Shown: one piece after another, positions 3,325-23,510 of the stretch
Layout of the letters: each line of letters starts with the position of its first letter
Numbering within the stretch: position 1 is the first letter of the stretch
From: a virus
IMG/VR virus record: IMGVR_UViG_3300028422_001980
Coordinates: 1 to 23,510 of that record
Direction: 5' to 3' (one strand)
DNA length: 23,510 bases
The notes under the pieces: generated by a model
What the model was told of the DNA's origin: nothing
The model's database searches: none
The model's input: the letters and a program-made list of their open reading frames with translations, nothing else
Position numbers and translations under genes: made by a program

Positions 3325-4647
3325 ATGATTTTAGAATTTGAATATACAGAAAGCCTTGGAGTTGGTTCATCACCACAGGTTCTGCACATGATGGATAATG
3401 GTTTCAGAGTGATTTATTTAAACCAAAATAATGATGTTTGTGTAAAGGTTACTTTCCCAGAACTCGGACTTTACAATAATTTATCGTGGAAAGAAAAAGG
3501 GCGAATGTCACCCGATGAAAATGTTTCATTCCCTCAGCTTAAAAAGGTAGCACACTATGGTGGCTACGGTTTTTGGAGCAGTGCTGGCAACCACAAATTT
3601 GTTATGTATATGCTACCAGTTGACATTTCTCACACAGTTATTGACGGAAGTATTTCAATTTCAAAGGACACACCAGTGACTTCTGCAAGTGTAAACTTGC
3701 AGAATATAAATGGCTTTTTGCTTAAAAGAAGTCGCTCAATTGTTGCACCAAACGCAAAGCTTGAATTCTACATTTCCTTTGGTGACAGTGATGAAATTTC
3801 AATTGGACAGTTTTATGTGGATAGGGTTTCAACGTCAATCCCAGAAAACAATCTGTCAGTTTCTGCTCGCAATTCTATCGGAAAGCTTTTAAAAGAGCAA
3901 ACCTTTGATGAAAGTTATACCTTTAATAAAGGGACGTTGCAAGAAAACCTCGAGGACATATTAAAGCTTGCTGAAATTGAAGACTATTTTGTTGGAGATA
4001 GTGGCAAGGCTTGGAGTTTATCTTTTGAGCCACAAACTACACTCTTAGACGGCATAACTGAAGTAATTAAGCTTTTAAATAACTGGCAGATTGCAGAAAA
4101 CTCAGATGGGGTTGTCGGCATTTCAAGAAATGAGGATGCAAGATTTGATGTTGCGTCAACCTATCTTTTTGAGCGTGACAAAACTTGTTTTAATTATAGC
4201 ACAGAATATTCTGACGAGCAGACTTACAACAGAATTTGCGTGTCCTGCAAAGAGCCGAGCAATCAACTTTTGCTTGAACTCCCACCTCACAAGCTATGGG
4301 TTTCACCAATGCACAAGACTTTGTATGTAAATGTTCCCGACGGAACAAGCTTTGCAGAGCTTACTGAGTATGCAAATAATCTTATTACCAGTATTTCAAA
4401 TGCTGGCAGAATTGAAACTTTTGCATCAAAGTTTACACCTCAGATGGTAATTGGTGATGAGATTAAAATGGTTGAGGATGATGTTGTTATCGGAACGGTT
4501 ACGTCAGTAAAGCACACACTCGGCAATAAAGGCTTTTATACGGAGTTTACGATTGACAGTTCTGGGCGAAAGGGTAAGCCTTTGCTCAAAGATTATTTAA
4601 ACAAAATTACAGGCAATAAAACGCTGAATGGCGTAACAATTACATGA
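3325..4647 (+). CDS. Phage tail hub / endopeptidase-like tail protein
   Basis: A 440-residue protein. I take the ATG at 3325, one base after the upstream stop and preceded by GGGAG; an open frame extends further left but only through the previous gene. Residues about 100-330 (ASVNLQNINGFLLKRSRSI, then IGQFYVDRVS and LLDGITEVIKLLNNWQI) resemble the hub-like N-terminal region of siphovirus tail-associated proteins. It ends in a short basic segment, NKITGNKTLNGVTIT. The 3' end is duplicated 533 bases downstream as a 41-base repeat, and the duplicate carries what looks like the ancestral stop codon. The hub assignment is by resemblance and gene order. Confidence 0.6.
   Translation: MILEFEYTESLGVGSSPQVLHMMDNGFRVIYLNQNNDVCVKVTFPELGLYNNLSWKEKGRMSPDENVSFPQLKKVAHYGGYGFWSSAGNHKFVMYMLPVDISHTVIDGSISISKDTPVTSASVNLQNINGFLLKRSRSIVAPNAKLEFYISFGDSDEISIGQFYVDRVSTSIPENNLSVSARNSIGKLLKEQTFDESYTFNKGTLQENLEDILKLAEIEDYFVGDSGKAWSLSFEPQTTLLDGITEVIKLLNNWQIAENSDGVVGISRNEDARFDVASTYLFERDKTCFNYSTEYSDEQTYNRICVSCKEPSNQLLLELPPHKLWVSPMHKTLYVNVPDGTSFAELTEYANNLITSISNAGRIETFASKFTPQMVIGDEIKMVEDDVVIGTVTSVKHTLGNKGFYTEFTIDSSGRKGKPLLKDYLNKITGNKTLNGVTIT
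4602..4642 (+). repeat. 41-base direct repeat, copy 1 (inside the tail hub gene)
   Basis: This copy matches 5135-5175 with one mismatch (T at the end of AGGCAAT versus C in AGGCAAC). It encodes KITGNKTLNGVTI at the C-terminus of the tail protein. The two copies bracket the backwards membrane-protein gene. Confidence 0.9.
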
Positions 4648-4683
4648 AATAGAACAATTTAAAGAACTCGTTTTGTTGAACCA

Positions 4684-5043
4684 TTAAGATAAATATACGA
4701 ATAGTGGCACTAAGAGAACCCAAATTATATGAGAAATATTGATAAGAAAATATATTATTACTGCTCCATTTATAATGAAATTTGATTGTTTAAGCTGCTT
4801 ATCTGTTGCCTTTTGCATTCTTTTAAATAAATACAATATTAGTATTGCTGGTAATATCGATTTTAGTGCTAGACTCCCTAGTGGGTTTTGAACAGTAGAG
4901 GCCATTAATGAATTTGCTTCCTTGTAGAACCCTGTATTTAATAAAAAAAGAGTAAAAATAATATCGGTTAAATTGAGTAGGTAAAGTAGTATAAGTTTTT
5001 TTTTAATTATTTCAAAGCTATATTTTCTTAAAAAATTAATCAT
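4684..5043 (-). CDS. Small membrane protein, DUF5658-like (inserted cargo)
   Basis: A 119-residue protein on the strand opposite to every neighbour. I choose the ATG at 5043 because an AGAGGTG ribosome binding site sits six bases ahead of it; an in-frame GTG three codons earlier is part of that site. It has three hydrophobic segments (about 17-37, 57-74 and 89-118) joined by a basic loop. The LNLTDIIFTLFLLNTG stretch followed by KEANSLM resembles DUF5658 small membrane proteins, whose function is unknown. The gene looks more AT-rich than its flanks. A 41-base duplication brackets it, so it looks like a phage cargo (moron) gene. A lysis-related or superinfection-exclusion role is possible but unsupported. 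Confidence 0.65.
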   Translation of the reverse strand: MINFLRKYSFEIIKKKLILLYLLNLTDIIFTLFLLNTGFYKEANSLMASTVQNPLGSLALKSILPAILILYLFKRMQKATDKQLKQSNFIINGAVIIYFLINISHIIWVLLVPLFVYLS

Positions 5044-5126
5044 TTTTAACACCTCTGTTGAAAATTATTGTCTATTATCTTATAAGATAAACAACAAATA
5101 TAGAGAAGTGATATAAAATTTTAATA

Positions 5127-5180
5127 GATTTAATCAAAATTACAGGCAACAAAACGCTGAATGGCGTAACAATTAATTAG
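5127..5180 (+). pseudogene. Leftover 3' end of the tail hub gene
   Basis: Read in frame, this stretch gives DLIKITGNKTLNGVTIN followed by TAG. The functional tail gene ends with LNKITGNKTLNGVTIT and TGA. The remnant lies 14 bases before the holin ATG, which is normal operon spacing. It is probably the original end of the tail gene, left behind when the DUF5658-like gene was inserted. Confidence 0.75.
5135..5175 (+). repeat. 41-base direct repeat, copy 2
   Basis: Second copy of the repeat at 4602-4642, with 40 of 41 bases identical. The start-to-start distance is 533 bases. No inverted termini or transposase lies between the copies, so this is not a classical insertion sequence. Confidence 0.9.
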
Positions 5181-5194
5181 AAAGAAGGGGTTTT

Positions 5195-5602
5195 ATGAAA
5201 GAAGTATGGTCTTGGATTCAGATAGCTTTGACGGCTATCGGTGGGTTTATTGGAGGGTTCTTGGGAGGAGTTGATGGCTTTTTGTATGCGTTAATTGCAT
5301 TTGTGGTCATTGACTACATAACTGGGGTTATGGTAGGAATAACGCAGAAAAAGCTGTCAAGCGAGGTCGGGTTTAAAGGAATATGCAAAAAGGTGCTGAT
5401 ATTCTTGCTCGTGGGAGTTGGGAGCATAATTGATACAAAGATACTTGGTGAAGGCAATGCCCTGAGAACGGCATCTGTCTTTTTTTATTTATCGAATGAG
5501 GGCATTTCAATTATTGAGAATGTCGCAATTATAGGACTTCCAATACCTCAAAAGCTAAAGGATGTTTTGGAACAGTTAAATGATAATAAGGGAGAAAAAT
5601 AA
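5195..5602 (+). CDS. Phage holin, TcdE/Phage_holin_4_1 type
   Basis: A 135-residue inner-membrane protein that should form the lesion letting the endolysin reach the wall at lysis. It has hydrophobic segments at about 8-24, 28-48 and 67-80. It also carries the family signatures DYITG (40-44), the SEVGFKGICKK loop (56-66) and SNEGISIIENV (100-110). Length fits the family. The ATG is preceded by AGAAAGAAGGGG. The stop lies two bases before the amidase start, the standard holin-endolysin pair. Confidence in the family is high. Confidence 0.9.
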   Translation: MKEVWSWIQIALTAIGGFIGGFLGGVDGFLYALIAFVVIDYITGVMVGITQKKLSSEVGFKGICKKVLIFLLVGVGSIIDTKILGEGNALRTASVFFYLSNEGISIIENVAIIGLPIPQKLKDVLEQLNDNKGEK

Positions 5603-5604
5603 TC

Positions 5605-6312
5605 ATGAAAATATATTTATCACCAAGCAATCAACCACAGAATTTATATTGTGTCGGAGGAACAAACGAAAAAGCACAGATGGAGGCTGTGGCTCACAAG
5701 GTCAAGGCAATTATTGATAGCGAATATGTGTGCGAAACTGTTATGGCAAGCTTGAATACTGACATTAATTTTAGAGCAATTGAAGCAAAAAACAATGGCT
5801 GTAATGTGTATCTTGCAATTCACTCAAATGCTGGGTGTTCAACGGCAAGCGGTGCAATTGCACTTTATCACCCAAGCAACGCTACATCAAAGACTTTTGC
5901 AACCAATCTTGTAGCAGAATTAAATGCAGCTTGTCCTATAAAATCAAACCGCAGTAGTGCTATCGTCAATGGAATGTCAGCTTTTAACGGTCAAGGTTAT
6001 GGTGAGGTCAGAATGCCAACGCAAAATGGTATGGTTTCTGTTCTTGTTGAAACGGATTTCCACGATAATCCGAATACTGCAAGTTGGATTATTAATAACA
6101 AGGATACAATAGCTAGAGCCCTTGTTACTGGAATTGCAAAGACTTTTGGGATTACAAAAAAGCAAGCTGCACCAGTGCCGCAATCCGTGCCTGTTTCTAC
6201 CGGAAAGCTATACAAGGTTCAGGTTGGAGCTTATTCAGTTAAAGCTAATGCTGACAATATGCTCGCAAAACTAAAACAATCCGGGTTTGATGGATATATA
6301 AAATTTGAATAA
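5605..6312 (+). CDS. N-acetylmuramoyl-L-alanine amidase endolysin (Amidase_3 type)
   Basis: A 235-residue phage lysin predicted to cut the amide bond between muramic acid and the stem peptide. The catalytic domain spans about 1-176. Visible residues are Glu22 (TNEKAQ) and His73 (AIHSN) as probable zinc ligands, and Glu149 (LVETDFHDN) as probable catalytic acid. The usual first His of this family is not evident; the N-terminus reads YLSPSNQ, as in a clostridial subgroup. Residues about 201-235 (LYKVQVGAYSVKANADNML) form a short SPOR-like wall-binding tail. There is no signal peptide, in line with holin-dependent release. An intrinsic terminator follows. Confidence 0.88.
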   Translation: MKIYLSPSNQPQNLYCVGGTNEKAQMEAVAHKVKAIIDSEYVCETVMASLNTDINFRAIEAKNNGCNVYLAIHSNAGCSTASGAIALYHPSNATSKTFATNLVAELNAACPIKSNRSSAIVNGMSAFNGQGYGEVRMPTQNGMVSVLVETDFHDNPNTASWIINNKDTIARALVTGIAKTFGITKKQAAPVPQSVPVSTGKLYKVQVGAYSVKANADNMLAKLKQSGFDGYIKFE

Positions 6313-6370: not shown

Positions 6371-6416
6371 AAAACGTCCTTTTTTACTTTCTCCCAAGGC
6401 TACAAGGTAGAGGGCA
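6371..6416 (+). ncRNA. Conserved RNA hairpin element, copy 1 (upstream of the DUF2800 operon)
   Basis: AAAACGTCCT, then 15 bases, then the loop AAGGCTACAA and a 3' arm beginning GGTAGAGGG. The 5' arm pairs with the 3' arm over about 9 of 11 positions including two wobbles. A second copy at 10715-10760 has the same spacing, a nearly identical loop, and different but compensated stem bases. It may correspond to the Bacillota RNA motif reported upstream of DUF2800 genes, but I cannot confirm that identity. It lies in the leader of the replication operon, 34 bases before the first start codon. Confidence 0.6.
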
Positions 6417-10714: not shown

Positions 10715-10760
10715 AAAACGTCCTATTTCACCTCCTGCCATGGCTACAAGGTAGGAGGTG
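10715..10760 (+). ncRNA. Conserved RNA hairpin element, copy 2, sequestering a Shine-Dalgarno
   Basis: AAAACGTCCT, then 15 bases, then the loop ATGGCTACAA. The arms CACCTCCTGCC (10729-10739) and GGTAGGAGGTG (10750-10760) pair at all 11 positions, with one G-U. The 3' arm holds the AGGAGGTG ribosome binding site of the following gene, whose ATG is at 10767. Pairing should block ribosome access. Relative to copy 1 at 6371-6416, spacing is identical and two stem positions change from T-A to C-G on both sides. Confidence 0.75.
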
Positions 10761-11389: not shown

Positions 11390-12706
11390 ATGGGGAGAAA
11401 TATTTCACAGGTCAGTTTTCCAAAGCTGAGTGCACCAAAGCTTAAAAAAGTAGCAGCCTATGCTCGAGTTTCAAGTGGTAAGGACGCCATGCTACACTCA
11501 CTTTCAGCACAAATAAGTTATTACAGTGACTACATACAACATCAAAAAGAGTGGCTGTATGCTGGCATGTATTCCGATGAGGCATTGACGGGCACAAAAG
11601 AAAACCGTGCTGGCTTTCAGAAAATGCTCATCAATTGCAAAGACGGAAAGATTGATATGATAATTACAAAGTCAATCTCAAGGTTTGCAAGAAATACCGT
11701 TACACTTCTTGAAACAGTTAGAGAGTTAAAGTCAATTGGTGTCGATGTATATTTTCAAGAACAAAACATTCATACAATGAGTGCTGATGGAGAGCTAATG
11801 CTCACTATTTTAGCAAGTTACGCTCAGGAAGAAAGCTTATCTGCAAGCGAAAATCAGAAATGGCGTATCCGTAAAGGCTTTGAAAATGGCGAGCTAATTA
11901 ATCTGCGTTTTATGTACGGTTATTATATTCATAAGGGTAAAATTGAAATTGATAAAAAACAAGCCAACATTGTCATGATGATTTTTGATGAATACTTAAA
12001 TGGCTTAGGGTGTAGTCTTATTGCCAAAAAACTTAGAGAACAAAATATACCTTTATTAAGAAATGGTAAATGGGAAGCTTTCAGGGTTTTATCAATACTT
12101 AAAAATGAGAAATACACAGGAAATTCTCTTTTACAGAAAAAATACCGTAATAACCACCTTGAAAAGAAAGAAATTAAAAATGACGGTACTCTTCCCAAAT
12201 ACTACGCAGAAGGCACGCATCAAGCAATAATTGATATTTGCACATTTAATAAGGTACAGCAAAGATTAAAACAGCAATCAGATAAATATGCAACCGGCAA
12301 AAATGCTGAACAATCCGTTTTTGCTGGTAGGCTTTTATGTCCACATTGTGGCAAGAATTATAAAAGAATGAAAAGTAATGGCTCTTTCGGATATAATTGT
12401 TCGAATTATCTGACAAAAGGCAAATCTGAATGTTGGGGCAAGAAAATACCTGAAACAACCTTGATTTCTATGAATAATGAGGTTTTGGGGATTGATATGT
12501 TTAATGATAATTTATTTAATTCTCAAGTAAAACAAATTATAGTCCCCTCTCCTAATAATCTTATTTTTATAATGTCTGACGGCAGACAAATAGAAAAAGT
12601 CTGGCAGAACCCTTCCCGTAAAGACAGTTGGACAGATGAAATGAAACAAAAAGCCAGCGAAAAAACAATTTTGCAAAGGAGTGAAAAACAATGTCAAGAG
12701 CAGTAA
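11390..12706 (+). CDS. Large serine recombinase 1
   Basis: A 438-residue site-specific recombinase. The N-terminal resolvase domain (about 19-165) has the catalytic Ser28 in AAYARVSS and the SRFARNT helix with conserved arginines. The recombinase domain follows (about 175-290, with MIFDEYLNGLGCSLIAKKL). A zinc ribbon begins at CPHCGKNY (about 315) with later cysteines NCSNY and ECW. It lacks the long coiled coil seen in the second recombinase, so it is shorter than typical integrases. It has its own GGAAGGAG ribosome binding site and its end overlaps the second gene by 16 bases. The pair probably act together in integration or excision. Confidence 0.92.
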   Translation: MGRNISQVSFPKLSAPKLKKVAAYARVSSGKDAMLHSLSAQISYYSDYIQHQKEWLYAGMYSDEALTGTKENRAGFQKMLINCKDGKIDMIITKSISRFARNTVTLLETVRELKSIGVDVYFQEQNIHTMSADGELMLTILASYAQEESLSASENQKWRIRKGFENGELINLRFMYGYYIHKGKIEIDKKQANIVMMIFDEYLNGLGCSLIAKKLREQNIPLLRNGKWEAFRVLSILKNEKYTGNSLLQKKYRNNHLEKKEIKNDGTLPKYYAEGTHQAIIDICTFNKVQQRLKQQSDKYATGKNAEQSVFAGRLLCPHCGKNYKRMKSNGSFGYNCSNYLTKGKSECWGKKIPETTLISMNNEVLGIDMFNDNLFNSQVKQIIVPSPNNLIFIMSDGRQIEKVWQNPSRKDSWTDEMKQKASEKTILQRSEKQCQEQ

Positions 12707-14256
12707 CAGTAATTCCACCAACAATTACCTTAAGAACAAATGCAAACTCACCCTCCCCTACTTACAGGCGAGTGGCAGCATACGCCCGGGTTTCAACTGA
12801 CAGCGAGGAGCAACAAACTAGTTACACTGCGCAGGTCGATTATTACACAAAATATATAAAGGAACGTGCAGACTGGAAATTTATTTCAGTTTATACAGAT
12901 GAGGGTATTTCTGCTGTTAATACAAAAAAGAGAGATGGCTTTAATACTATGATTGCAGACGCACTTGCCGGAAAGATAGATTTAATAGTCACAAAGTCAG
13001 TCAGCAGATTTGCGAGAAATACAGTTGACAGCCTTGTTACTGTTAGAAAGCTCAAAGAAAAAGGCGTTGAGGTTTATTTTGAAAAAGAAAATATCTATAC
13101 ACTTGACAGTAAGGGCGAACTTTTAATTACGATTATGAGCTCTTTGGCACAGGAGGAAAGCCGTTCAATTTCAGAAAACGTTACCTGGGGACAGCGCAAA
13201 CGCTTTGCTGATGGTAAAGTAAGCCTACCATATAAAAGCTTTCTCGGGTTTGAAAAAGGTGATGATGGTTTGCCAAAGATTGTGGAAAAGGAAGCTGAAG
13301 TAGTCAGGCAGATTTACCGACTTTTTATGGAGGGTAAAACTCCAAGGAAAATAGCAACAATTCTTACAGAGAAAGGAATACCTACTCCAAAGGGTAAAGA
13401 AAAATGGCAGGTCACTACTATTTTAAGTATTCTCACCAATGAAAAATACAAGGGGTCGGCATTACTTCAGAAAAAATTCACAGTTGATTTTTTGACAAAA
13501 AAGCAAAAAATCAATGAGGGTGAGGTTCCTCAGTATTTTGTAGAAAACAGCCATGAGGCTATTATTGAACCTTTAGAATTTGATATGGTTCAGGCAGAAC
13601 TTGCAAGACGAAAAGAGCTGGGCAAGAGTTATTCCTGTAACAGCATTTTTTCCTCAAAGATAGTTTGTGGGGAGTGTGGAGATTTCTATGGCTCTAAGGT
13701 TTGGCACAGCAATAGCAAGTACAAACGCACCATTTGGCAATGTAATAATAAATTCAAGGGAGATAAGAAATGTAATACACCCCATCTTTATGAGGAAGAT
13801 ATAAAGGCAGAATTTATAAAAGCTTTTAATGAACTGCTCCAAAATAAAGAGGAAATTCTTGATAATTGCAGGCTTATTCAAGCTACTCTTACAGATTGCA
13901 GTAAAATAGATAAGGAAATAACTGATTTGCAATCTAAGCTTGAAGTCATAGAAGGTCTTACAAGAAAGCTTGTTGACGATAATTCTTGCAATGTTATAGA
14001 TCAGAATGAATATATTTCAAAATATGAGGCTCATTTAAAACGCTATGAAACCTCCAAATTCAAACTGGAGAAACTACAAAATCAGCGTAATGCAAGGATT
14101 GCCAAGCATGATTTAATCGGTGGTTTTATGTTTGAGTTGGTGGAATGTAATGAGGTTATTTCAGAGTTTGATGAGAAACTGTTTGGTGTGGTGGTTAAGA
14201 AGGTTGTGGTTAGAAAGGATGGGTTGGAGGTTGAGTTTAGGCATGATAAAATATAA
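12691..14256 (+). CDS. Large serine recombinase 2 (integrase type)
   Basis: A 521-residue recombinase. Catalytic Ser35 lies in AAYARVST. The resolvase domain covers about 26-170, with SVSRFARNT and AQEESRSISENV. The recombinase domain runs about 178-290. The zinc ribbon has CGECG (about 325) plus CNNK and CNTPH, and a coiled coil (about 400-485) of the kind that controls synapsis direction in large serine integrases. All expected domains are present. The start is the ATG behind AAAGGAGTG, inside the end of recombinase 1. Serine integrases usually lie beside their attachment site, so a boundary of the element may be just downstream. Confidence 0.93.
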   Translation: MSRAVTVIPPTITLRTNANSPSPTYRRVAAYARVSTDSEEQQTSYTAQVDYYTKYIKERADWKFISVYTDEGISAVNTKKRDGFNTMIADALAGKIDLIVTKSVSRFARNTVDSLVTVRKLKEKGVEVYFEKENIYTLDSKGELLITIMSSLAQEESRSISENVTWGQRKRFADGKVSLPYKSFLGFEKGDDGLPKIVEKEAEVVRQIYRLFMEGKTPRKIATILTEKGIPTPKGKEKWQVTTILSILTNEKYKGSALLQKKFTVDFLTKKQKINEGEVPQYFVENSHEAIIEPLEFDMVQAELARRKELGKSYSCNSIFSSKIVCGECGDFYGSKVWHSNSKYKRTIWQCNNKFKGDKKCNTPHLYEEDIKAEFIKAFNELLQNKEEILDNCRLIQATLTDCSKIDKEITDLQSKLEVIEGLTRKLVDDNSCNVIDQNEYISKYEAHLKRYETSKFKLEKLQNQRNARIAKHDLIGGFMFELVECNEVISEFDEKLFGVVVKKVVVRKDGLEVEFRHDKI

Positions 14257-14575: not shown

Positions 14576-15583
14576 ATGGCTAGAGCAGACTTGCTCTGTG
14601 ATATAATCAAATATGGTTTGATTAATGACAGTGTTAATTTTAGAAAAGCTGCTGAGGCAATTTGTGCTGAAGAACGTTCAAAGCAGCATGGTGTCTTAGC
14701 AAATAAAATAGAAGAATTATTGAAAAACGCAAAACCATCATACAAAGATATGAGTGCACCTAGCATAATACGAAATGGAATTAACGAACAAACATTAATT
14801 TGGGAGAAAATACCTCAAAAAAGAATAAATGAGTTATTATTACCTAAAAACGTTTTGGAGAGTTGCAACGAAATAATTGAAGAACAATTACGAGGAGATC
14901 TATTGAGATCTTACGGACTTGAACCTCGTAACAAAATGTTATTAGTGGGGCCTCCTGGGAACGGAAAGACCTCATTGGCAGAAGCATTAGCAGAATCTTT
15001 GTCTGTTCCTCTTCTTACAGTACGATATGAGAGTATTGTAGGTTCATATTTAGGTGAAACAGCAAGTAAGCTTTCAAAGCTAATTGAATACGCAAAGTCA
15101 AGACAATGTGTTCTTTTTTTCGATGAATTTGAAACATTGGGCAAAGAGCGTGGTGATATGCACGAAACAGGTGAGATAAAGCGTGTAGTTAGTTCCTTGT
15201 TGTTGCACATTGATTCTTTGCCAAGCTATGTTGTTGTTATTGGTGCAACTAATCATGAAGGGTTACTGGATAAAGCAGCATGGAGAAGGTTCCAAATAAA
15301 ACTAAATTTACCGAAACCTGAGCAAAAAGATCTAGAAAAATTGTATTCTTTGTTTGAAAAACAAAAAAATTTCAAATTTGGTGTTTCTACATTGAATTTG
15401 GCAAAGAAAACAGTAGGTTTATGCTTTGCAGAATGTGAAGAATTAGCTCTGTCAATTTACAGACAGTATGTTTTGAGTCTTCCTAATTCAAATACTAAAA
15501 ATATTACTGAAAACACATTGAAGCTATGGGATGATCAAGTTAAAATCAGTAAAAATCCAAATATGGAAGTAGGTGAAAAATAG
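14576..15583 (+). CDS. AAA+ ATPase paired with a subtilisin-like protease
   Basis: A 335-residue cytoplasmic ATPase. The Walker A loop is GPPGNGKT (125-132), Walker B is LFFDEFE with Asp183-Glu184, sensor 1 is IGATNH, and arginines follow in AAWRRF, where an arginine finger is expected. The N-terminal 110 residues are helical and should be the partner or substrate-binding part. The class resembles FtsH/CDC48-type AAA domains. It starts at an ATG behind GGAGGG and its stop overlaps the protease GTG (TAGTG), so the two products are made together. AAA ATPase-subtilase pairs recur in mobile islands and are suspected conflict systems. The biological role here is inferred. Confidence 0.88.
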   Translation: MARADLLCDIIKYGLINDSVNFRKAAEAICAEERSKQHGVLANKIEELLKNAKPSYKDMSAPSIIRNGINEQTLIWEKIPQKRINELLLPKNVLESCNEIIEEQLRGDLLRSYGLEPRNKMLLVGPPGNGKTSLAEALAESLSVPLLTVRYESIVGSYLGETASKLSKLIEYAKSRQCVLFFDEFETLGKERGDMHETGEIKRVVSSLLLHIDSLPSYVVVIGATNHEGLLDKAAWRRFQIKLNLPKPEQKDLEKLYSLFEKQKNFKFGVSTLNLAKKTVGLCFAECEELALSIYRQYVLSLPNSNTKNITENTLKLWDDQVKISKNPNMEVGEK

Positions 15584-18138
15584 TGAGTGAAAGACCATTG
15601 TTATTATTTCCTGAACCTCAAGTAGCAGATAAAACAAAGGGGCATTCAGTGCCTCCAGGCAAAATCTTCAAACCTAACGCACAAAGGCAGTTTCAACGAC
15701 TAACTCCTGTTTTTGGAGAGTTAACCCGAGCTTTTGCTTTAAAAAATATTGTCGTGCAGCAATCGACAATTGGTATAAATCCAGAATATGCTTTGGTGTT
15801 CGAAGTTATAGGGAGTGTCGATGATTTTTATAAGGCAGTGAATAAAGTTGAAGGACTGGAATGGATTTTTGACCAAACTACAGATAATATTGAACCTGAT
15901 GAATACTTTTATCAACAAAATGATGAAGGAGAAGTTGTTGACACTTCTTTTAACGGTAGAGTATATTGCGTAATGACAAATCTGTCTGCAATGAACGAAT
16001 TATTATCCATGTGGCGAAGATATAGCAATGGAGAAACAAATGTGTTCCCGAGAGGGACTGCTCCGATCAGAAAGGTATTTGAATTACTAAAGAGTATTAG
16101 ATTATGGAATGCGCAAGATCGTATTTATGAAACTAAAGCAATTGAATACTGGAAAGAAGAGTTGGAGTTTACAGGAAAAGATATTGTTACTTTTGAGATT
16201 GAATTGTTTTGTAGAAACAATGAGGATAAAAGAACCAAATCCATTTCAGAAGTAACGTATGCAATTTCCGCATTAGGCGGACATGTATTAAAAATTTGTT
16301 ATATTGAAGAAATATCATATCATTCCCTTCTTGTTAATTTACCAAGAGCCGAAATACAACAGTTGGTGGATAATTATGAAAGTGTTTCTTTAGTTAATGT
16401 TGATGGTATTATGTTTTTTAGACCAATGTGTCAATCGGTTTTTTGCAGTGATGATTCCTCTATTCCGTATGAAAATGAAACAGAAGATACCCAAGACTTG
16501 CAAGACCCAATAATTGCAGTATTGGATGGTATGCCTATGCAAAACCATCGACTATTAAAGAATAGAATTATTGTTGATGATCCAGATGAATATGAAAAAT
16601 ACTATCAAGTTAAAGATAGGAAACACGGAACAGCAATGGCTTCTTTAATTATTCACGGAGATATCAATAGTGGTAGCCCTTCGTTACAAAGAAAAATATA
16701 TTTCAGGCCAATAATGAAACCTTATACAGATTGGCATGATAATTCTATTGAAAAAATTCCTGAAGATGTAATGATAGTTGATTTAATTCATCGTTCAATT
16801 AAAAGAATGATCGAAGGAGAAAACGATGAAAGTCCAGCATCACCTATGGTCAAGGTTATTAACCTCTCAATAGGTGACCCTTATCGGCAGTTTGCTACAA
16901 TAATGAGTCCTTTGGCAAGATTATTGGATTGGTTAAGTTTTAAGTATAAAATACTATTTGTAGTTAGTGCTGGTAATCAATCAAAGTTTGAAGAAGAGTT
17001 CAGCGAACCATTCTCAAATTTTAAAAGTTTATCAATTAATGAAAGAACTGCGAAAGTATATGACTGTTTATCAGATTATAAAAGTTACCTAAGGGTTTTA
17101 TCTCCAGCTGAAACAATCAATAATCTAACTATCGGGGCTACATACTCAGATTTTTGCAAATTAACCGAAAATGAAAGACAAGCATTTGTAGTTGAAAATG
17201 GTTATCCAAGTCCAATTTCAGCTATAGGATTTGGATATAATAAAATGATTAATCCAGATTTATTTTATTATGGAGGCAGAAAGTTTCTTGTTGAGGATTT
17301 GGCAAGACGTAAATCTAGGTGGTTAAATAACACGAATGAACCAGGCTGTAAATCTGCTTCTCCGTTGGCTGATGGTGTTTCAGATGGATGTGCTTTTTCT
17401 TTTGGCACTAGTGATGCTACTGCTCAAATTACACATGAAGCAGGAATTTGCTATGATGTACTATACGATATATTCGTTAACGAAAACGAGAGGGCTTTGC
17501 CACAAAATCATATTGCAACTTTATTAAAATCAATGCTAGTTCATGGTGCATCTTGGGGTAGTATTAGTACTGAATTGGCAACTCATGTGTCAGAAACAAA
17601 TAAAAAATTAACCAGATGGTTAGGGAACGGAATACCTGACGTAGCTAAGGTGCAAGATTGTACTAAGAATAGAGTTACATTAATAGGGTTAGGTGAGCTA
17701 GTGCCAGATGAGGCGCACTTGTATAGGTTGCCATTACCCTTTAACTTTTCAACAGAAAAAATAAAAAGAAAGTTGACAATAACACTATCTTATCTTACTT
17801 CTACTGTTCCTACAAAGCAAAAATACAGAGGCTCGCAGATTTGGTTTGAAGTTAATCAAATTGATAATTTAAAAATGACACGTCAAAATTCAGATTGGCA
17901 AGCTGTTAGAAAAGGAACATTACAACACGAAATATTTTGCGGCGAAAATGCTGTTGTTTGGGATGAAAACAATGAATTAATAATTAAGGTTAATTGTAAA
18001 GATGACGCTATAAAGACAAATGATAAAATACCATATGGAATGTTTGTGACATTCGAAGTTGCTGAAGGAATAGACTTGGATGTTTATACTAAGATTGCAA
18101 GTAAAATCAGAACAACTGTTTCTATACAAAATAATTAG
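15583..18138 (+). CDS. Cytoplasmic S8 (subtilisin-like) serine protease, 851 aa
   Basis: A large protease with no signal peptide, hence probably intracellular. The triad is complete: Asp315 (AVLDGMP), His348 (KHGTAMA) and Ser610 (FGTSDATA), with oxyanion Asn465 (SAGNQS). About 300 residues precede the catalytic domain and include a possible inhibitor-like segment near 225-275. About 200 residues follow it as a beta-rich C-terminal domain. The start is a GTG sharing its G with the ATPase stop. The ATPase probably delivers or gates substrates, or holds the protease in check until a trigger appears. Family is certain; target unknown. Confidence 0.9.
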   Translation: MSERPLLLFPEPQVADKTKGHSVPPGKIFKPNAQRQFQRLTPVFGELTRAFALKNIVVQQSTIGINPEYALVFEVIGSVDDFYKAVNKVEGLEWIFDQTTDNIEPDEYFYQQNDEGEVVDTSFNGRVYCVMTNLSAMNELLSMWRRYSNGETNVFPRGTAPIRKVFELLKSIRLWNAQDRIYETKAIEYWKEELEFTGKDIVTFEIELFCRNNEDKRTKSISEVTYAISALGGHVLKICYIEEISYHSLLVNLPRAEIQQLVDNYESVSLVNVDGIMFFRPMCQSVFCSDDSSIPYENETEDTQDLQDPIIAVLDGMPMQNHRLLKNRIIVDDPDEYEKYYQVKDRKHGTAMASLIIHGDINSGSPSLQRKIYFRPIMKPYTDWHDNSIEKIPEDVMIVDLIHRSIKRMIEGENDESPASPMVKVINLSIGDPYRQFATIMSPLARLLDWLSFKYKILFVVSAGNQSKFEEEFSEPFSNFKSLSINERTAKVYDCLSDYKSYLRVLSPAETINNLTIGATYSDFCKLTENERQAFVVENGYPSPISAIGFGYNKMINPDLFYYGGRKFLVEDLARRKSRWLNNTNEPGCKSASPLADGVSDGCAFSFGTSDATAQITHEAGICYDVLYDIFVNENERALPQNHIATLLKSMLVHGASWGSISTELATHVSETNKKLTRWLGNGIPDVAKVQDCTKNRVTLIGLGELVPDEAHLYRLPLPFNFSTEKIKRKLTITLSYLTSTVPTKQKYRGSQIWFEVNQIDNLKMTRQNSDWQAVRKGTLQHEIFCGENAVVWDENNELIIKVNCKDDAIKTNDKIPYGMFVTFEVAEGIDLDVYTKIASKIRTTVSIQNN

Positions 18139-19023: not shown

Positions 19024-20886
19024 GTGGACTTTACATTAAAAGAAACACTTAAAAATTTGAATCCCTCACCTACAAAACTAGATAATTCAAACATCAAAAG
19101 TATTAAGGAACAATTTCCTGTACCAGTTTCGCACAAAGTGCTATGGGCAGATGTAAAATTTGGAAGAAGAATTTCAGGACTTGTATTGACCGACATTGGA
19201 ATTTTTATAAAGGGAAGTAAAGAAATAATTAATGAAGAAAACTTAAAAATTTCCAATAAGAAAGATAAAATAAATTCAATATACCATTACATTAAATGGG
19301 AGTATTTTGATGTAGATGATTTTAAAATAGACTTATACCAAGATAAATGCAGTGTAAAATTTAATAATAAAAAAGTTGCAGACCTAAGTAGAAATAACAA
19401 TTTTTTTAAACTATACAAGGACACTTACAAAAATATAGTTAAAGAAGCCGTTGTTTCAGCTGAAAATATTTTTGCTGATTTAGAAGCTGTTGTTGCTGAA
19501 AATTTTTCTGCTGTTAATACAAAGACCGGACATGGCGAGATGGCTGAAGAAGCATTAACACTTTTGGATAAATTATCTGGAAAGGATGTAAAAGTTGTTG
19601 GTCGAACAAATGAAAAGAACGGTGCAGATCGATTAGTTGATGGTGTCGAAATTCAAACGAAATATTACTCATCTGGTAAAGGCTGCGTTGATGCATGCTT
19701 TGATAAAACTACAGGTAATTTTCGCTATCAATCAACTAATGGAGAACCTATGCTTGTTGAGGTGCCAAAAGATAAATATGCCGATGCAATCAATGAGTTT
19801 CGTAAGAAAATACTTGAAGGAAAAGTTCCGGGGGTTACTAATCCAGATGATGCATCTAAATATATAAAGCAAGGTAAGCTAACCTATAAGCAAGCATTAA
19901 ATCTTTGTAGACCTGGAACAATTGAATCATTAACATATGATACTGTAACTGGTGCTATTAATTGTTCTTTTGCTTTTGGAATAACTTTTCTTACGACTTT
20001 TATTATTAGTTATTCACAAACTGGGAATCGAAAAGAAGCAATGAATTCAGCCTTTGCTGCTGGCATACAAGTTTTTGGCTTGGCTTTCTTTGCTCATGTT
20101 TTCACTCAGCAAGTTGCCCGTACAACTTTGACAAAACAATTAATTCCTTTAAGCACATACATTGTAAACGCTATGGGGTATAAAACTGTACAAACTATCG
20201 TTAACGCAATTAGATCAATGGCTGGAAAATCAGCAATTTCCGGTGCTGCTGCTATGAAACAGTTAGCTAAAATTTTAAGGAGTAATGTTGTAACTTCAGC
20301 AATTACATTTATTGTTTTCTCCGTTCCGGATACATATAACATTTTTTGTAAGAGACTATCTAAGGCGCAATATACCAAAAATATGTTATCTTTGATTGGC
20401 ACTATGGCAGCTGCAGGAGGAGGTACGTTAGGTACTTCGCTAGTTGTAGCAAAAGTTGGTGCTGAAACAGGCACAATTATTGCACCAGGAGTAGGTACCG
20501 CCATTGGTATAGCTGGTGGTTTAGTTGGGGGTTTGCTTGGGGGAGCTGCAATTAAAGCGGCAGGGGATGCAATAAGAGAAGATGATTCAGTGGTAATAGC
20601 AAGACTATTCAATGGAGTAGTTATTAATATGATTTATGAATATATGCTATCTGAAAGTGAAATAAATGTTGTTATTGAGAAATTTGATTCATTAAAGCCA
20701 AAAGATTTTAAAAAGCTCTTTAAATCTGTCGTTTCTTTTAAAAAACAAGAAAAAATTATTGAAGATTATATTCGCCATTTTTATGAGGAAGTTATCAGAA
20801 GTAGACCTAAAATTTCAGAACCTTCACCATCAGATTTAGTAGAGTTCGTGAAGCAATTTAACTGCGCTGAACAAAATAACATATAA
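19024..20886 (+). CDS. Membrane-associated protein with PH-like and Mrr-like nuclease motifs
   Basis: A 620-residue protein with a GTG start behind AAGGAGAAG. Residues about 35-120 look PH-like (SGLVLTDIGIFIKG, then YHYIKWEYF). Residues about 165-245 carry GHGEMAEEA, then Asp202 in NGADRLVDG and VEIQTKYY (Glu209, Gln211, Lys213), resembling the D...QxK active site of Mrr-type PD-(D/E)XK nucleases. Hydrophobic segments lie at about 311-331 and 343-360, another near 420-435, and a glycine-zipper tract at 461-512 (GIAGGLVGGLLGGAAIKAAG). The C-terminus is soluble. It may be an effector that attacks DNA or membrane. Fold calls are by eye and need profile searches. The gene is co-transcribed with both neighbours. 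Confidence 0.65.
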   Translation: MDFTLKETLKNLNPSPTKLDNSNIKSIKEQFPVPVSHKVLWADVKFGRRISGLVLTDIGIFIKGSKEIINEENLKISNKKDKINSIYHYIKWEYFDVDDFKIDLYQDKCSVKFNNKKVADLSRNNNFFKLYKDTYKNIVKEAVVSAENIFADLEAVVAENFSAVNTKTGHGEMAEEALTLLDKLSGKDVKVVGRTNEKNGADRLVDGVEIQTKYYSSGKGCVDACFDKTTGNFRYQSTNGEPMLVEVPKDKYADAINEFRKKILEGKVPGVTNPDDASKYIKQGKLTYKQALNLCRPGTIESLTYDTVTGAINCSFAFGITFLTTFIISYSQTGNRKEAMNSAFAAGIQVFGLAFFAHVFTQQVARTTLTKQLIPLSTYIVNAMGYKTVQTIVNAIRSMAGKSAISGAAAMKQLAKILRSNVVTSAITFIVFSVPDTYNIFCKRLSKAQYTKNMLSLIGTMAAAGGGTLGTSLVVAKVGAETGTIIAPGVGTAIGIAGGLVGGLLGGAAIKAAGDAIREDDSVVIARLFNGVVINMIYEYMLSESEINVVIEKFDSLKPKDFKKLFKSVVSFKKQEKIIEDYIRHFYEEVIRSRPKISEPSPSDLVEFVKQFNCAEQNNI

Positions 20887-20898
20887 AGGGATGATATA

Positions 20899-21897
20899 AT
20901 GCTTTACAAATTAAATACAAATAAAGAAGATTATATAAAAGTTAATAGAGTGACATTAAAAAGCCTCGGGTGGAAGGAAATTGATTTACAGAAATTGCTA
21001 TCTAAGCATATTCAAGATTTTATTTATTCAAATGAATTAATGACTATATTTAACGAAAGACCAAGACAAGAAGAACCCGATATTTTGGCGTTAGATAAAA
21101 AAGGAGACCTGTATATATTTGAATTAAAACGCTGGAGTTCAAATCAAGAAAATTTGCTCCAGGTTCTTCGCTATGGACAATTATTTGGTAATAGCAATTA
21201 TGATGAGTTAAATGAATTATTTCAGAAATATACTTCATCTCCTTCAACATTGTATGAAACACATAAACAATATTTTGGATTTAATGAGGACTCCTGTGTT
21301 GAAACAGATAATTACAATAAAAATCAGCACTTTTTGATTGTGACAAATGGTTTAGACCAGAAAACCGTTGAAGCTATTGCTTATTGGAAGAAAAATGGAC
21401 TTAATATTGACGCCATTATATATTGGGTTTTTGAAATTAATGAAGAATATTTTATCGAATTTAATATGTTTTCACCTATAGAAGGATTTCTAGAATATGA
21501 AAGTTCTAGTTATGTACTTAATACAAACTACTCAAATAATAAACAACATAATGATGATATGATTAAGAATCATAAGGCAGCAGCTTATTATCCTGGTTGG
21601 AGAGAAAAAATTGAAAAAATCCAAAAGGGAGATACAGTTTTCTTGTATAAAAGTGGCAGCGGAATTGTTGCATACGGAATTGCTAATGGAATTTTGGAAA
21701 AGCGAGATTGTGATGGGAACAAAGATTATGAATACCTTATGAAACTTGATAAATTTGAAGTTTTAAGTACTCCAATGCTTCCATCTAAAATGAAAGAAAT
21801 AACTAACCAAGGGTTCCCGTTTAGAACAACACTGTTTTCTATTAGCGATGAGAGCAGAGATCTTATCATTAAAGAAATTAAAAAAAACTACCTATGA
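20899..21897 (+). CDS. PD-(D/E)XK nuclease with C-terminal EVE/PUA-like domain
   Basis: A 332-residue protein, 12 bases after the previous gene, behind AAAGGGATG. The N-terminal half has a complete nuclease signature: Asp61 (EEPDILAL), Glu75 and Lys77 (IFELKRW), then QVLRYGQLF, as in NucS/DUF91-like and RecB-type nucleases. Residues about 218-332 (AAYYPGWREKIEKIQKGDTV, then FLYKSGSGIVAYGIA) resemble EVE or other PUA-like domains, which read modified bases in restriction systems. The combination suggests modification-dependent cleavage of invading DNA. The nuclease motif is firm; the reader domain is less certain. It is the last gene of the operon. Confidence 0.72.
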   Translation: MLYKLNTNKEDYIKVNRVTLKSLGWKEIDLQKLLSKHIQDFIYSNELMTIFNERPRQEEPDILALDKKGDLYIFELKRWSSNQENLLQVLRYGQLFGNSNYDELNELFQKYTSSPSTLYETHKQYFGFNEDSCVETDNYNKNQHFLIVTNGLDQKTVEAIAYWKKNGLNIDAIIYWVFEINEEYFIEFNMFSPIEGFLEYESSSYVLNTNYSNNKQHNDDMIKNHKAAAYYPGWREKIEKIQKGDTVFLYKSGSGIVAYGIANGILEKRDCDGNKDYEYLMKLDKFEVLSTPMLPSKMKEITNQGFPFRTTLFSISDESRDLIIKEIKKNYL

Positions 21898-22307: not shown

Positions 22308-23510
22308 TTATCCAACTTTTATACAGTCTGAAATACACTCGCTGACAGCAGTCTGCATTTCCATAAAAGCATAGGCGTAAATATTAAGTGTGGTCGTAGC
22401 TTGAGCATGTCCCAGATTTTGTTGAACAGTTTTAATGTCACATCCATTTTTAATTAATAAGCTTGCGTTCATATGTCTAAAATCATGTGTGCAAATATGC
22501 TTGAGATTGTTTACAATACAAAAGCGTCTAAGCCAGAGCGTCATAGCAGGCGGAGAAACAGCGTTGCCGTATGTCCCTCTAAATACTATTTCATTATCCC
22601 TATCGTTCCATTCTGTGCCTATATCGTTGCGTTGGCCCTCATAAAACTGTTTTAATTCATTAAGTTTATCAAACACAAGTTGTGGCAATTTGATACACCT
22701 AACTGATGACTTAGTTTTTGGGGAACTAACTACTCTGAAAATATCTGCTCCATTAACAGTTTGGACAGAGTCCTCTTTGCATCTTCTTATTTTGTAAACA
22801 TTTCTTTTAATAAAAACCATACTTCTTTTGAAATCAAAATCTTTCCACTCAAGTCCGCAAAGTTCCCCTAATCGCATTCCGCTATAAAGTGCAACTGTGA
22901 AAAACACTCTATATAAAATAGATGATTTTTCATTCAAGGCCTCAAAAAGTAAGTTTGCATCTTCAATAGAATAGAACTCTTTTTCTGACTGACATGCTGA
23001 TGGTCTTTTAACATCATCACATGGGTTGATTTCAAGAATATCGAGTTCCTTAGCATATTCAAATACAGTTGAAATATAAGACATTGTATTTCTTATTGTC
23101 TTAGGGTTAAGTGGCCTTTTGGAAAACTTCCCCTTACCCTCTTCAAGCCTTTGAATCATCCTTTTAAGGACACTTCTTGAAATGCTGTCAAGCCTCATAT
23201 CTCCAATTTCAGTATTAACACGTTTTATAACGGTTGACATTTTATCAAAAGTAGAAGGTTTGTATTTCGGTTTTGCATAGTGAGGTATCCAATCTTTAGA
23301 AATAAAGTCTGCGAATTTTACATTACAGGCTTGATACCCATTTTTATATTTTTCTTCAAACAGAACCATCTGTCGAGCCAGTTCTGCTTTAACTTTTCGC
23401 TTATTATTTTTGATATCAGCATTAGGTTGCCAGTTAAAATACTGGCATCCTTTTTCTTTATTTGTGACTTTGATTCGGTATGAATCGCCACGTATTATAT
23501 AACTAGCCAC
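22308..23510 (-). CDS. int: Tyrosine recombinase/integrase (Tn916/phage type)
   Basis: A 400-residue integrase whose GTG start is at the window edge. MASYIIRGDSYRIKV is a typical N-terminus for the family, so it is probably complete. Residues 1-60 resemble the arm-binding AP2-like domain. The core-binding domain covers about 65-165 and the catalytic domain about 175-395. Catalytic residues are all visible: Arg213 (SGMRLGEL), a Lys near 265, His342 and Arg345 (HDFRH), His368 (LGHAQ) and Tyr378 (LNIYAY). The gene reads leftward towards a non-coding repeat region, as int genes read towards their att site. It therefore probably belongs to an element continuing to the right. Confidence 0.93.
   Translation of the reverse strand: MASYIIRGDSYRIKVTNKEKGCQYFNWQPNADIKNNKRKVKAELARQMVLFEEKYKNGYQACNVKFADFISKDWIPHYAKPKYKPSTFDKMSTVIKRVNTEIGDMRLDSISRSVLKRMIQRLEEGKGKFSKRPLNPKTIRNTMSYISTVFEYAKELDILEINPCDDVKRPSACQSEKEFYSIEDANLLFEALNEKSSILYRVFFTVALYSGMRLGELCGLEWKDFDFKRSMVFIKRNVYKIRRCKEDSVQTVNGADIFRVVSSPKTKSSVRCIKLPQLVFDKLNELKQFYEGQRNDIGTEWNDRDNEIVFRGTYGNAVSPPAMTLWLRRFCIVNNLKHICTHDFRHMNASLLIKNGCDIKTVQQNLGHAQATTTLNIYAYAFMEMQTAVSECISDCIKVG

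Follow-up and report, generated by a model that had tools for sequence, protein, structure and literature searches.

A DUF5658 membrane gene between the tail and holin genes of a phage is flanked by a duplicated tail gene end

We analysed a 23.5-kb stretch of DNA (the window), positions 1 to 23,510 of the IMG/VR virus record IMGVR_UViG_3300028422_001980. In this window a tail protein gene and a holin gene, the latter followed by an amidase (endolysin) gene, are separated by a small membrane gene on the opposite strand, and a direct repeat lies on each side of that gene. The closest relative was IMGVR_UViG_3300017589_000255 (L002), with 84-86% identity in the flanking DNA. The tail protein of the window shares 94% of its amino acids with that of L002 and 44-65% with those of other relatives. 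The features of the locus are as follows.

3325..4647, plus strand: tail protein gene (phrog_1887, E=1.6e-16), now ending in repeat copy 1 and a new stop, TGA
4595..4642, plus strand: repeat copy 1, the tail gene 3' end in its upstream context; the L002 alignment (BLAST) is continuous to 4642
4643..5127, no strand: unique inserted segment of 485 nt, missing from L002
4684..5043, minus strand: cargo gene, DUF5658, a small membrane protein of 119 aa (PF18902, E=5.4e-21)
5075..5090, no strand: perfect 16-base palindrome TTATCTTATAAGATAA, upstream of the cargo gene (sequence and inverted-repeat search)
5128..5175, plus strand: repeat copy 2, the duplicated tail gene 3' end on the holin side, outside any intact gene
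5178..5180, plus strand: TAG stop after copy 2, in frame; the translation of the joined flanks ends in VTIN and this stop
5195..5602, plus strand: holin gene (PF05105, E=1.2e-42; phrog_199 holin), starting with the ATG at 5195

An independent repeat search recovered 4595-4642 and 5128-5175 as a 48-nt direct repeat with 96% identity (2 mismatches), and this pair was the longest and best among the direct repeats of the window. Its 41-nt core (4602-4642 and 5135-5175) contained exactly 1 mismatch. When the region 4000-6000 was shuffled with approximate preservation of dinucleotides (n = 50), every best 41-nt pair contained 13 mismatches or more, versus the 1 observed. The repeat corresponds to the 3' end of the tail gene. 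Copy 2 reads ...KITGNKTLNGVTIN-TAG, with 14 bases from there to the holin ATG, and runs on into the holin leader, matching the arrangement in L002. After copy 1 the insert supplies another stop, TGA 4645-4647, and the tail gene consequently now ends in VTIT. Joining the window flanks at the repeat restored an open tail frame ending in KITGNKTLNGVTIN and a stop (VTIN-stop), and TAG 5178-5180 is probably the original stop of the tail gene. The first-pass annotation, made from the letters of the window, had described a 41-base duplication differing at one base, a tail gene upstream, a minus-strand DUF5658-like membrane gene between the copies, and a downstream copy reading in frame to VTIN and TAG, 14 bases before a holin. 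All of these were borne out, the genes by their matches to phrog_1887, PF18902 (over its curated cut-off) and PF05105. Another direct repeat of the window, 6371-6410 and 10715-10754 (40 nt, 85% identical), falls within intergenic DNA at both positions, which are separated by 4.3 kb.

The insert has a G+C content of 25%, compared with 38-39% in the flanking genes. The cargo protein scored 75.6 bits against PF18902, for which the curated cut-off is 25.2, and it kept 11 of the 11 residues that were invariant across nine members of the DUF5658 family (L23, N24, D27, T31, L34, G38, E42, N44, K61, P65 and Y98), so the gene looks intact. An SD-like GAGGTG precedes its ATG. Within the insert we found no recombinase, no transposase and no terminal inverted repeats. 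Promoter-like sites were at background level (5 vs 3.7 expected), and neither a consensus scan of the insert nor folding of the 3' side of the cargo gene revealed a terminator of its own. In the cargo leader (minus strand, 5044-5130), a hairpin in one of four folds would pair with the ribosome-binding site (z -2.3), and the palindrome at 5075-5090 would sit inside this predicted SD-sequestering structure. The protein is small and hydrophobic, and four helices were predicted for it at low confidence (pLDDT 73, pTM 0.32). A PDB search with the predicted fold returned nothing better than E 5.9, so no function could be assigned from structure, and our literature search found no mention of DUF5658. 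From its position and orientation, we would guess that the protein acts in the lysogen membrane, for example in superinfection exclusion.

Comparison with L002 provided the empty site. Collinearity of the two genomes stopped at 4642 and resumed at 5128, from where the BLAST alignment ran through the holin and endolysin genes. L002 is without the 485 nt and has one repeat copy only; the two alignments of the window overlap on L002 5268-5314, which is that single copy. With filled and empty site both at hand, the joints could be placed to within a few bases, the empty site being that of one close relative whose junction itself carries small indels. In L002, about 18 nt have apparently been lost at the holin start (5319-5345), perhaps by slippage between two copies of GAAAGAAG (window 5180-5204), as well as 1 nt in the tail end. 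The locus is thus a gene-end duplication accompanying an insertion, with both neighbours preserved. The first-pass annotation had proposed such an insertion, with no transposase inside, and had anticipated that a relative without the cargo would hold a single copy of the repeat, two copies there speaking against it; L002 bears out both points. An AAC codon is common to copy 2 and L002 and copy 1 has AAT, a difference that could stem from drift in copy 1 or from two parents. Divergence between the two copies is low (2 of 48 positions) next to the roughly 14-16% that separates the window from L002 in the flanking DNA. The duplication therefore probably arose after the two lineages had parted, a tentative dating drawn from 48 nt.

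The tail-holin junction was then read in 26 relatives, L002 and 25 more distant ones, and DUF5658 was present there in none (0/26). Because the 485 nt are missing in L002 and DUF5658 occurs in none of the 25 more distant relatives, the comparison indicates that the insertion is derived, as opposed to an old gene that L002 has lost. In 16 of the 26 junctions the holin starts 13-16 nt after the tail stop; in 7 the spacer measures 52-92 nt and usually includes a terminator-like hairpin; the remaining 3 are occupied by other genes. The tail family normally ends at the position of the repeat, in line with the earlier proposal, and the other relatives are without cargo of this kind. Two of the occupied junctions carry an AraC-type regulator with unknown genes (L010, 7496-9687) and a TehB-type methyltransferase (L011, 1596-2204). 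No repeat of this kind surrounds either insert, and in both relatives a hairpin spacer before the holin provides room in the junction. Cargo in L010 and L011 without such repeats indicates that the junction accepts cargo and that the repeat is no fixed targeting site, and the different cargo in related prophages marks the tail-holin junction as a cargo hotspot of this phage group. We scanned about 30 tail loci, and 80 holin loci covering 0.61 Mb, for repeat-flanked inserts and found no comparable repeat upstream of a holin, the few repeat matches being short or located elsewhere. For eight relative loci, a check of the record or genome likewise found no PF18902.

Homologues of the cargo protein were not found in phage, plasmid or viral-contig collections when the single protein was used as query, nor in viral contigs with a four-member DUF5658 alignment, and the exact repeat pattern had no match in viral contigs. 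A homologue used as query likewise uncovered none in the phage or plasmid collections. The suggestion of the first-pass annotation that the same gene might occur at a second site therefore found no support in viruses. Chromosomal DUF5658 homologues were found in Clostridia (up to 52% identical), and about 2-3% of the genomes sampled had a relative, the sampling being of the order and class to which the host of a related prophage belongs. The homologues lie at ordinary chromosomal loci, for example by a seryl-tRNA synthetase or a Trk-type transporter gene (neighbours named by eye from sequence). The searches turned up no donor sequence whose edges match. Given the ordinary chromosomal surroundings of the homologues and the lack of viral or plasmid ones, the cargo would most simply be a bacterial chromosomal gene caught by the phage.

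A repeat-flanked cargo, with a single repeat copy in relatives, was described in 2011 for genes 43-46 of the mycobacteriophage LRRHood (PMC3029335, GQ303262), and we recovered its 29-bp repeat from GQ303262. As in LRRHood, the extra DNA is missing from close relatives (here L002), which have one copy of the repeat, and the two copies of the direct repeat sit within the upstream gene's end and shortly ahead of the downstream gene. The LRRHood insert is 1.35 kb long, with a repeat of 29 bp and four genes, among them a repressor from other phages, whereas the present one consists of 485 nt with one bacterial-type membrane gene and a repeat of 48 nt, at a tail-holin junction. The window insertion is of the same kind, and the type has therefore already been described. 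The insert also resembles morons in being a single ORF of other base composition, on the opposite strand, between genes that are adjacent in relatives; unlike in morons, no clear promoter or terminator of its own was found, and the end of the upstream gene is duplicated. It is moron-like in a loose sense and is not filed as a strict moron, because no terminator of its own was found and promoter-like sites were at background. The mycobacteriophage mobile elements MPME1/2 encode a product of about 120 aa, similar to the 119 aa of the cargo. Their length (439 bp; PMC3029335) is similar as well; however, the insert shows no terminal inverted repeats, no 6-bp addition and no copies at other sites that we could find, and DUF5658 is a family of membrane proteins with chromosomal homologues. 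Neither a shared attachment site or cassette elsewhere nor a linked recombinase was found that would place the insert among integrase-borne cassettes or islands.

With the insertion, its empty site, the duplication, the preserved frames and the tight ancestral junction established, the arrival of the gene is most likely explained by illegitimate recombination with overlapping endpoints. A DUF5658 gene, probably from a Clostridia host chromosome, would have entered a temperate phage between its tail and holin genes through illegitimate joining, either non-homologous or at microhomology. The two joints on the phage genome would have overlapped by about 48 bases, copying the tail gene end to both sides; copy 1 would then close the tail gene at the new stop, copy 2 would retain the native leader of the holin, and selection would keep the duplication product. 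Selection for the duplicated end is suggested by the ancestral junction itself, since it spans about 14 bases and holds the holin ribosome-binding site, and an insertion without the duplicated end would put the tail gene end or the holin translation start at risk. L010 and L011, with spacer room and no repeat, are as such selection predicts. The lysogen may express the cargo, and the small membrane protein would then serve the host cell or act against superinfection. Taken as a whole, illegitimate joining with an overlap of about 48 bases followed by selection, with no special machinery, is the account that we favour with some confidence.

Recombination with a related phage in which the cargo already followed the tail gene would derive copies 1 and 2 from different parents. 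The copies do have unlike stops and 2 mismatches, the AAC of L002 recurs in copy 2 and not in copy 1, and the LRRHood authors favoured recombination with another phage for their case, for which they could not reconstruct the event (PMC3029335). Yet 2 mismatches in 48 could as easily be later drift, and no virus with DUF5658 beside such a repeat was found; we consider this origin rather unlikely, though deserving of serious thought. Repeats are also classic misjoin points, and the window is an IMG/VR virus record, which raises the question of a metagenome assembly chimera made at the repeat. Such a misjoin would need real DNA in which the cargo was already repeat-flanked, the copies differ at 2 positions, and the flanks differ on both sides, each being collinear to L002, which makes an artefact improbable.

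Elements that attach at gene 3' ends rebuild the gene end in the same manner, and the record encodes two serine recombinases, so that the 48 nt might be the attL and attR of a small circular cassette integrated site-specifically by a phage or host recombinase. The insert itself holds no recombinase, however, no second cassette or site was found in the sequences searched, and the L010 and L011 inserts sit at the same junction without the repeat; site-specific integration is accordingly given little credence. Transposition with target-site duplication would likewise leave an insert between direct repeats and one copy at the empty site, but 48 nt is far above the usual target duplications and neither terminal inverted repeats nor a transposase are present, making it scarcely credible. 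Beyond the illegitimate joining and selection preferred here, gene-end duplication might mark a recurrent acquisition route into tight phage junctions, with LRRHood as a further example. A dedicated template-switching or recombinase activity might then drive it, in place of random joining and selection; we regard this broader idea as a long shot.

The entry of cargo genes into compact phage genomes has been called mysterious (PMC4378225). Where spare spacer is lacking, duplicating the sequence that would otherwise be broken lets an insertion survive. The first-pass annotation had seen in this locus an unusually clear picture of how cargo arrives: that holds for the architecture, and it does not hold for the mechanism, since several mechanisms give such an architecture, and LRRHood is a precedent (PMC3029335). 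The locus offers a usable test case for cargo acquisition, the second after LRRHood, from which alone the recombination machinery is not identified.

Farther along the window, IetA and IetS, an AAA ATPase and subtilase anti-phage defence pair, were detected at 14576-18138 (PADLOC E 2e-137 and 2e-297), and the two serine recombinases (11390-14256) lie just upstream of them. The pair may lie beyond the prophage end or may be phage cargo. A match to the candidate defence family PDC-S11 (20899-21897, E 1.6e-22) adjoins a 620-aa gene (19024-20886) and precedes a minus-strand tyrosine integrase at 22308-23510.
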